DNA of 64,000 bases. Origin: Thermoleophilum album. GTDB lineage: Bacteria; Actinomycetota; Thermoleophilia; Solirubrobacterales; Thermoleophilaceae. Location: the NCBI RefSeq assembly GCF_900108055.1, contig NZ_FNWJ01000001.1, positions 930,001-994,000 on the forward strand. The letters run 5' to 3'. This document shows, one piece after another, positions 11,775 to 15,296 of this stretch (position 1 is the stretch's first letter; every line of letters starts with the position of its first letter). The notes beneath the pieces were generated by a model. It did not search any database. It was not told the origin of the DNA and was given only the letters and a program-made list of their open reading frames with translations. A program made the translations under genes and the position numbers.

Positions 11775-12908
11775 TTAGCTGCGGGAGCGATGCGCTCGGC
11801 CCTGCGTTAGCTCGGCAAGGCAAGCATCGAGCGCCGAGAGCAGCCGGTCGCTAGCCGCTCGGTCGCGCACCGCGATCCGCACCCGCGCTCGGTCGCCCAA
11901 CGCCGCTCTCGAAGCCACGCGCACGGCGCGCCGCTCGAGGGCGCGAGCGAGCTCCCGGCCGTCGATGCCGAGCTTCGCCACCCACAGGAAGTTGGCTTCG
12001 CTCGGCGAAACGTCGAAGCCCCGCGCGCGGAGCTCGCGCGCCAGGCGTTCGCGCTCGGCGACGATGCGGCCGACTTGCCCCTCGACCCAACTTTCCCTCA
12101 TGAGCGCCTCGGTCGCCGCGGCCACCGCCGGCGCCGATACCCCGAGGGTCGGTGTCACAAAGCCCGCTCGGTGGGCGAGCGTTGGCGGCAGCACGGCGTA
12201 GCCGATTCGCAAGCCCGCGAGGCCGAACGCCTTCGAGAAAGTGCGCAGCAGCACCACGTTGCAGCGGTTAGACAGGCGCAGCACCGCGTCGCGGTGCTCC
12301 CGGCGCTGGTAGTCGATCAGTGCCTCGTCGACGATCAGCAGCTGCTCGCAGCGGAGAGTCTGCGCGACCGCCGCGAGTTGCGCAGACGTGAAGTAGTGAC
12401 CAGTGGGGTCGTCGGGATTGCAGATCAGAAGGTCGCAACCCGCGCTCGCCGCGCGCGCTAGGGCCTCGCTCGTGCGCTCGATCGGCCGCGCCTTCTTGCC
12501 GGCGCGCTCGATCGCAAGCGGCAGAAGCGGATGGGATGGCCAGGTCACCGCCACCTCTTCGCTGCCTGCCAGGTGTGCGAGCACCCGCTCGAGCAGATCG
12601 GAGATGCCGTGGCCGACCGCGATCAGTGCCGCCTCGACGCCGAGTCGTTCGGCGAGGGCCGAGCGCAGGCCGGCGGCGTGACGGTCGGGTGGCAGGTTGA
12701 TCGGACCACGTAGCGCGGCGATCGCCGCGTTCACGACCTCCGGGTCCGGCATCTGGGGAGATTCGGTGCGCGAGAGGTCGACGATCTCGGCTCGCGCCAA
12801 CGCGCGGCGCCGCCGTTCGCGTCGCCGCTCGGCCGCGGCCACTAGCACCTCCGGGGGAACGTCGTCGTACTGGCGGTAGCGGTCGAGCAAACCCACCGCC
12901 CTGATCAT
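11775..12908 (-). CDS. Class I/II PLP-dependent aminotransferase (HisC/CobD-like)
   Basis: 377 residues. A fold-type I aminotransferase. The PLP lysine lies in RTFSKAFGLAGLRIGY and the cofactor Asn/Asp motifs in CNPDDPTG and IVDEALIDYQ. This pattern is shared by histidinol-phosphate aminotransferase and threonine-phosphate decarboxylase, so the substrate cannot be fixed from sequence. There are no histidine or cobalamin genes nearby to decide. A small membrane protein gene lies 23 bp upstream on the same strand. Confidence 0.85.
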   Translation of the reverse strand: MIRAVGLLDRYRQYDDVPPEVLVAAAERRRERRRRALARAEIVDLSRTESPQMPDPEVVNAAIAALRGPINLPPDRHAAGLRSALAERLGVEAALIAVGHGISDLLERVLAHLAGSEEVAVTWPSHPLLPLAIERAGKKARPIERTSEALARAASAGCDLLICNPDDPTGHYFTSAQLAAVAQTLRCEQLLIVDEALIDYQRREHRDAVLRLSNRCNVVLLRTFSKAFGLAGLRIGYAVLPPTLAHRAGFVTPTLGVSAPAVAAATEALMRESWVEGQVGRIVAERERLARELRARGFDVSPSEANFLWVAKLGIDGRELARALERRAVRVASRAALGDRARVRIAVRDRAASDRLLSALDACLAELTQGRAHRSRS

Positions 12909-12931: not shown

Positions 12932-13411
12932 TCACCGGGCAGGTGCGAGTTGCGGGCCCGGACCTTGAACTACCAGGAACCAGACGGCGAAGACCGCTAC
13001 CGCGACGACCACCGAGACACCGAAGACGGTCTCCAGCGCGCCTTCGTCCTGGCGGTGTCCGGCGGCCCGGCGCACGAGCTTCCAAGCGTGGTCGACACGA
13101 CGCGCGACCGCCAGCGTCAGGAGCAGCGTCGCGAGCGAGCCGAGCACCGCAACGACGATGCCGCCAAGAGCGCTTCCCGTGAGGTACTCGAAGTGCGAAC
13201 CCAACCACAGCCAAGCGAGCGGCTGCGGACCGAGCACGCTCACGCACAGCAACAGCTCGAGCGCCAAGAGCGCGGCCGCGAGCGCGCGGTCGAGCAGAGC
13301 GACGAGCGGCGACCTTCGGGCATCGCCGACGCGATACCGACGCGTACGCGCGGTGCCCGGACGTCGCCCGATGAAGAGCCCGCCGGTGTCGGTGGGATCG
13401 GTCTTCGGCAT
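12932..13411 (-). CDS. Hypothetical membrane protein, three predicted helices
   Basis: 159 residues, not recognised. A basic N-terminus (about residues 1-35) is followed by three hydrophobic stretches near residues 36-60, 75-103 and 127-149, separated by short charged loops (RRVDHAWKLVRRAAGHRQDE). It begins with an ATG. The opposite strand is also open here but encodes an implausibly charged sequence. Its position between the aminotransferase and fadD, all on the minus strand, suggests co-transcription without hinting at function. Confidence 0.65.
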   Translation of the reverse strand: MPKTDPTDTGGLFIGRRPGTARTRRYRVGDARRSPLVALLDRALAAALLALELLLCVSVLGPQPLAWLWLGSHFEYLTGSALGGIVVAVLGSLATLLLTLAVARRVDHAWKLVRRAAGHRQDEGALETVFGVSVVVAVAVFAVWFLVVQGPGPQLAPAR

Positions 13412-13490: not shown

Positions 13491-13586
13491 TCAGCTGTCG
13501 CCGTACAGCCCGTCGATCACGTGCGCGTACTTCTCTTGCACGACCTGCCGCTTGACCTTGAGCGTTGGCGTGAGCTCGCCGGTCGG
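13491..13586 (-). pseudogene. Severed C-terminal tail of fadD, in frame after an amber codon
   Basis: Reading on in the same frame past the TAG at 13587-13589 gives 31 residues, [20 protein letters not shown] and then [11 protein letters not shown], followed by TGA at 13491-13493. This is the expected end of a FadD15-type acyl-CoA synthetase, including the A10-type lysine motif (LKVKR) used in adenylation. Without readthrough it is not translated. Confidence 0.85.
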
Positions 13587-15296
13587 CTACGAAAAGTCGT
13601 GCGGCAGGATCGCGAACTTCTTGATCTGCTCCACGCGACCGAAGTGCGAGTTGACCTCGTCGACCACCTTCTGGATCTCTTCGCGCACCCGGGGATCGGC
13701 CGCCAACTTGGCCGGATCGGACTCCTCGATCCCCAGTTTCGCGGCGAGCTGCGGCGCGTTTTCCGGATCGAGCGTGATCAGCGCGACCAGATACGGCCGA
13801 CGATCACCGATCACCACCGCCTGTGAGATCCAGGGGCTCTGCTTGAGCTGGTTCTCGATGTTGGCAGGCGTGATGTTCTTGCCCCCGGCCGTGATGATGA
13901 TGTCCTTCTTGCGGCCGGTGATGTAGAGGAAGCCGTCCTCGTCGATCCGCCCGATGTCGCCGGTGTGCAGCCAACCCTCCGGATCGATCGCCCGGCGCGT
14001 TGCCTCCTCCTCCTTGTAGTAACCCCGGAAGATGTTGGGCCCGCGCACGAGGATCTCGCCGTCCTCGGCGATCTTCACCTCGACGCCAGGTAGCGGCTTG
14101 CCGACCGAACCGAATCGGAAGTCGTCGGGCTCGTTGACCGTGGCGACAGTCGCCGTTTCAGTCATGCCGTAGCCCTCCATGACCGGCACCCCACAGGCGT
14201 AGAAGAACTCGAGGATCTCCTTTGCGATCGGAGCGGCGCCGGTGGTCGCCTGGCGCAAACGGCCACCGAAGATTGCGCGCACCTTGCTGAAAAGCTCCTC
14301 GTCGGCGCGCTCGAAGGCCTTCCTCAGCTCCTCGGGGACCGGTTCTCCTCGCGCTTCCGCCAGTCGCACCTTGAGACCCAGCTCGACGGCTTTCTCCAAC
14401 TGTTCCTTGTCGGGTGCAGCGGCCGTTGCGAGCGCGTAGATCTTCTCGAAGATGCGCGGCACCGAGGGCAAGTAGGTCGGTTTGACCTCTTGCAGGTCCT
14501 GGACGATCTTCTGCGGATCCCGCGACCAGTAGGCGATGGTGACGCCGAGATCGATCGACGCGAACTGGATCAGGATCGCGAACGCGTGCGCGAGCGGCAG
14601 GAAGAGATAGGCAACGTCGTCGGTCTCAAGGACTGCCTGCGACACCACCGCATCAGTGATGTCGCGGTAGTTGCCGTGCGAAAGTAGACAGCCCTTTGGC
14701 GGTCCAGTGGTGCCGGACGTGTAGATGTAGAGGCAGATGTCGTCACGCGTCACGGACCGGTAACGACGCTCGTACTCCGACGCCTCTATCGCGCGTCCGC
14801 GCTCCCGCAGTTGGTCGAGCGTGATGAAGTCGTCTCCCTCAAGTCCCGACGGATCGAACACGATTACGTGCTCGAGCTGAGGCAGGCGCTCGCGCACCGC
14901 GCGGATCTTCGCGACCTGCTCGGCGTCCTCGGCGAACACCGCACGCGAGTCAGAGTGGGCGAGAACGTACTCGCACTCTTCGGGCGAGTTCGTTTGGTAG
15001 ATCGTCACGAAGGTGGCGCCGGCCCCGACGATCCCGAAACAGGCGTGCGTCCACTCGGGTCGCGTGTGCGACAGGATCGAGACCTTGTCACCAGGCTCGA
15101 TCCCCAGCGAAACTAGGCCGAGCGCGACCTCGCGCACGCGGTCGCCTAGTTCGCGGTAAGTGAGATCCTGCCACTGGTCACCGACCTTGAAGCGTTGCGC
15201 GGGCTTGTCGGCGTAGCGCTCCGCGGCCAGCGGGACGAGATCGGCGATCGTGCGCGAGCCGGTGCCGAGACCGGTCTCGATCGTGCGAGCTTCCAT
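13587..15296 (-). CDS. fadD: Long-chain acyl-CoA synthetase, truncated by in-frame TAG
   Basis: 569 residues up to the stop. An ANL-superfamily AMP-binding enzyme that activates fatty acids to acyl-CoA. Motifs in order: YTSGTTGPPKGCLLSHGN (A3), GYGMTETATVATVNEP (A5), LHTGDIGRIDEDGFLYITGR (A7-A8), then KKDIIITAGGKNITPANIE. The frame stops with TAG right after ILPHDFS, and the expected C-terminal tail continues in the same frame for 31 codons. As it stands the protein lacks its catalytic C-terminal lysine, so it is either a recent pseudogene, a sequence error or a readthrough product. AGGAGG stands upstream of the ATG. Confidence 0.92.
   Translation of the reverse strand: MEARTIETGLGTGSRTIADLVPLAAERYADKPAQRFKVGDQWQDLTYRELGDRVREVALGLVSLGIEPGDKVSILSHTRPEWTHACFGIVGAGATFVTIYQTNSPEECEYVLAHSDSRAVFAEDAEQVAKIRAVRERLPQLEHVIVFDPSGLEGDDFITLDQLRERGRAIEASEYERRYRSVTRDDICLYIYTSGTTGPPKGCLLSHGNYRDITDAVVSQAVLETDDVAYLFLPLAHAFAILIQFASIDLGVTIAYWSRDPQKIVQDLQEVKPTYLPSVPRIFEKIYALATAAAPDKEQLEKAVELGLKVRLAEARGEPVPEELRKAFERADEELFSKVRAIFGGRLRQATTGAAPIAKEILEFFYACGVPVMEGYGMTETATVATVNEPDDFRFGSVGKPLPGVEVKIAEDGEILVRGPNIFRGYYKEEEATRRAIDPEGWLHTGDIGRIDEDGFLYITGRKKDIIITAGGKNITPANIENQLKQSPWISQAVVIGDRRPYLVALITLDPENAPQLAAKLGIEESDPAKLAADPRVREEIQKVVDEVNSHFGRVEQIKKFAILPHDFS

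Follow-up and report, generated by a model that had tools for sequence, protein, structure and literature searches.

Does a fadD-like gene that meets an in-frame TAG shortly before its conserved end still encode a whole enzyme, by recoding or because the base is wrong, or has it been cut by mutation? The locus that raises this question lies in the window, the whole 64,000-nucleotide stretch of DNA analyzed here, which belongs to a 2.2 Mb genome in five contigs (95.6% complete). On the minus strand, the frame as it stands (13587..15296) runs from an ATG at 15296 to the premature TAG and encodes a protein of 569 residues, the last of which are ILPHDFS. The TAG, codon 570, occupies 13587..13589, and the minus strand around it reads ATC CTG CCG CAC GAC TTT TCG TAG CCG ACC GGC GAG CTC ACG CCA ACG CTC AAG GTC AAG CGG. 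Beyond the stop the frame is open for 31 codons and ends GAC AGC TGA, with the TGA at 13493-13491; this conserved C-terminus (13491..13586, minus strand) would close the protein with GDS. An earlier note on this DNA had placed a TAG directly after ILPHDFS and had read the 31 codons up to the TGA at 13491 as the expected end of the enzyme. The minus-strand sequence and the comparison described below bear out both claims, and the coordinates are right.

Its domain content places the product in the ANL superfamily, among the long-chain acyl-CoA ligases. The Pfam AMP-binding model PF00501 matches residues 24-427 with 288 bits, well above the curated cut-off of 29.9; the top NCBIfam model, FadD11, scores below its cut-off. 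The gene has the full AMP-binding plus AMP-binding_C_3 architecture of ANL long-chain acyl-CoA ligases and aligns collinearly across 601 codons to its orthologue in a same-genus genome; it departs from these enzymes in that the stop at codon 570 cuts the C-terminal domain. When the frame is read through, the AMP-binding_C_3 model, 124 positions long, scores 58.7 bits and is matched up to position 121; with the stop in place, the 569-residue product scores 40.2 bits and its match breaks off at position 86. That product ends before the motif TPTLK and lacks the complete C-terminal domain with its A10 lysine. The gene body is thus an ANL family member by descent, whereas the present product is without a complete C-terminal domain. 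Within the intact body is a GRKKD stretch that is probably the A8 hinge region, a region whose role in ANL enzymes has been described (PMC11253843). A scan for promoters and terminators found none.

The site of the stop was compared with homologous genes. Some near relatives of the fadD protein come from MAGs that bear the name Thermoleophilaceae. Within the genus, a full orthologue was found only in G001, a genome in one contig; it is 88% identical. Apart from the TAG, the frame has no stop, frameshift or gap relative to this orthologue, and both span 602 codons including the final stop, which agrees with the earlier description of the rest of the gene as undamaged. A third genome of the genus (72% complete) contains no full fadD orthologue; since it also lacks the flanking genes or matches them only in part, the absence is probably an assembly gap and this genome is uninformative about fadD. 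In G001, codon 570 is CAG (Gln570), and the TAG differs from it by one C-to-T transition that is private to our assembly. Sixty-five homologous loci, some of them duplicates of one species, extend over the site. The codon is CAG or CAA in 61, ATC in 2 and CCG in 2; none of the 65 has a stop there. Nor does any relative among these loci end naturally at the position of residue 569. The earlier note had named relatives ending at the same residue, with no homology downstream, as the case that would overturn its reading, and the sense codon in 65 of 65 loci is the opposite of that pattern. A second in-frame TAG, in a relative from G017 (L178), proved to be a normal terminal stop after EALYA.

We then asked whether the sequence after the stop had been coding. 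Thirty of its 31 residues are identical to those of G001; 7 of the 31 codons differ, with 6 synonymous changes and 1 replacement. The motif immediately after the stop, or a near variant of it, is kept at the same point in nearly all relatives. Nei-Gojobori omega against G001 is 0.088 for the tail (31 codons) and 0.112 for the body. The DNA past the TGA looks by eye unrelated between the two genomes, so background similarity does not account for how well the tail is conserved. On this comparison, the tail did not arise as an open frame by chance; selection acted on it until very recently, and it has not yet decayed. When replacements were polarized with 17 relatives, 12 fell on the gene's own lineage and 17 on the sister lineage, with no excess on its own lineage. 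With no sign of relaxed selection on that lineage, the stop is either very young or not real.

An open, constrained frame behind a stop would also fit readthrough or recoding, in which UAG would be translated often enough for the complete enzyme to be produced. The base after the TAG is a C, which creates a somewhat leaky stop context. The earlier note had offered programmed amber readthrough as one of its explanations and had proposed a search for an amber suppressor tRNA or pyrrolysine genes. We counted terminal stops and glutamine codons in 81 well-aligned orthologue pairs from a 204 kb stretch (G000 C1:830001-1034000) compared with G001. TAG terminates 25 of the 81 genes in the present genome; at 9 terminal stops G001 has TGA where this genome has TAG, and at 5 the reverse holds, the direction of change not being polarized. 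At the sites where G001 encodes glutamine, the present genome has 515 CAG, 130 CAA, 166 other codons and a single TAG, that of fadD; no other glutamine site in the 81 pairs has turned into TAG. Release factor RF1 was found above its cut-off. Infernal identified 46 tRNA genes, all of whose anticodons were read by ARAGORN, and none of the 46 has a CTA anticodon. A pattern search for suppressor tRNAs gave three matches: an ordinary tRNA-Gln(ttg), an ordinary tRNA-Glu(ctc) and a sequence that holds no tRNA. The best match to PylS (TIGR02367) reached 28.6 bits, where the cut-off is 178.15, and weak matches below the cut-off also occur in most control genomes. Finally, the RNA fold after the stop has no excess stability (z -0.80 and -1.24).

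The resemblance to pyrrolysine or amber-suppressor systems therefore ends with an in-frame TAG followed by conserved sequence; here there is no suppressor tRNA, PylS is below its cut-off, TAG serves as an ordinary terminator, and no relative has it at this site. With RF1 present and the fold unremarkable as well, readthrough or recoding is not supported, and we consider it highly improbable. Extremely improbable, in our judgment, is a variant in which a real TAG is usefully read by a near-cognate tRNA, such as tRNA-Gln CTG, so that a leaky amber codon sets the amount of full-length ligase. Traces of full-length protein may possibly arise through ordinary low-level near-cognate misreading.

The other explanation in the earlier note, a single-base change caused either by recent inactivation or by a sequencing error, is the one that stands: the nearest relative has CAG, the tail is constrained and the gene carries no other damage. 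Between these two causes, we favor a real mutation over an error in the consensus, and we think it probable that fadD has suffered a private, very recent C-to-T nonsense mutation. A single transition would have turned Gln570 from CAG into TAG in a previously functional long-chain acyl-CoA ligase, very recently relative to divergence within the genus. The unanimous sense codon among homologues, the near-identical tail and the genuine use of TAG as a terminator are all as this reading predicts, although the lack of further decay would be expected equally from a sequencing error. It is possible, at lower probability, that the TAG stems from an error in sequencing or in the consensus, or from a minority variant of the strain that entered the consensus, the gene still having CAG and the enzyme being whole. 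Consistent with such an error, fadD is otherwise free of signs of decay or relaxed selection, its surroundings show no wider decay either, and in about 204 kb compared with G001 no gene but fadD has a clear internal premature stop. (The remaining stops listed in that comparison were judged to reflect starts extended too far, shadow frames or badly aligned ends.) That single clear stop, however, also implies that the assembly is not generally error-ridden, which favors a real mutation; we saw no error pattern and no other clear internal stop in the orthologous genes over 204 kb, and the change itself is a transition, the common kind of real mutation. The nonsense codon is ordinary in kind. It resembles other recent nonsense pseudogenes with an intact downstream frame in having arisen by one transition, in showing no further decay and in having paralogues present, and it differs from them in nothing beyond the ordinary.

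If the nonsense mutation is real, RF1 would terminate translation at the TAG and yield a 569-residue protein without its last 31 residues. With them it would lose the final part of the C-terminal domain, including the probable A10 lysine. The earlier note had located the lysine motif, LKVKR, after the stop, and it does lie within the lost tail. There, TPTLKVKR was matched by eye to the published A10 motif ...TPSGKILR... (PMC8388817), and this match makes K580 the probable A10 lysine; that its position was set by eye against a published motif weighs against the proposed consequence of the mutation. During adenylation, the A10 lysine makes contact with the alpha-phosphate, and it is described as the key catalytic residue of this reaction in the superfamily (PMC8388817); in NRPS adenylation domains, the equivalent K517 stabilizes the adenylation half-reaction (PMC11253843). 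Because the tail with this probable A10 lysine would be missing, the 569-residue product has most likely lost, wholly or in large part, the ability to form acyl-adenylate. Alternatively, the truncation might be adaptive, the 569-residue form having an altered but useful activity, such as thioesterification only, or a regulatory role. The intact body, including GRKKD, is compatible with this idea, but no relative ends at the same residue, and a tail kept under constraint until recently leaves little time for selection on a short form; we regard adaptive truncation as very unlikely.

How the recent nonsense mutation might be tolerated is suggested by the paralogues. PF00501 has 10 matches in the genome. 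Two of these lie side by side and seem to be fragments of a single gene, which leaves about 8 AMP-binding genes besides fadD. One FadD-like paralogue, at C2:460416-462197, is 42% identical and has an intact C-terminus (DELTPTMKLKRK). Its presence is consistent with a real mutation in fadD, and it could make the loss tolerable. What the comparison shows directly is the conserved Gln codon, the single base change and the constraint on the tail; that translation terminates at the TAG, that activity is lost and that paralogues make this tolerable are inferences. The genus Thermoleophilum, which is heat-loving, is restricted to n-alkane substrates (PMC6544083). If our organism lies, as is probable, in or near it, losing one of the ligases that activate fatty acids would point to paralogues that suffice. 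An annotation of fadD should mark it as a probable pseudogene or note that the base is unverified, and should present it neither as a recoded gene nor as a shorter enzyme; beyond annotation, the finding has little significance.

Just downstream of fadD, DNA similarity to G001 is patchy. An open frame for a membrane-protein-like product of 159 residues (12932-13411, minus strand) lies there, followed by an aminotransferase-like gene (11775-12908).
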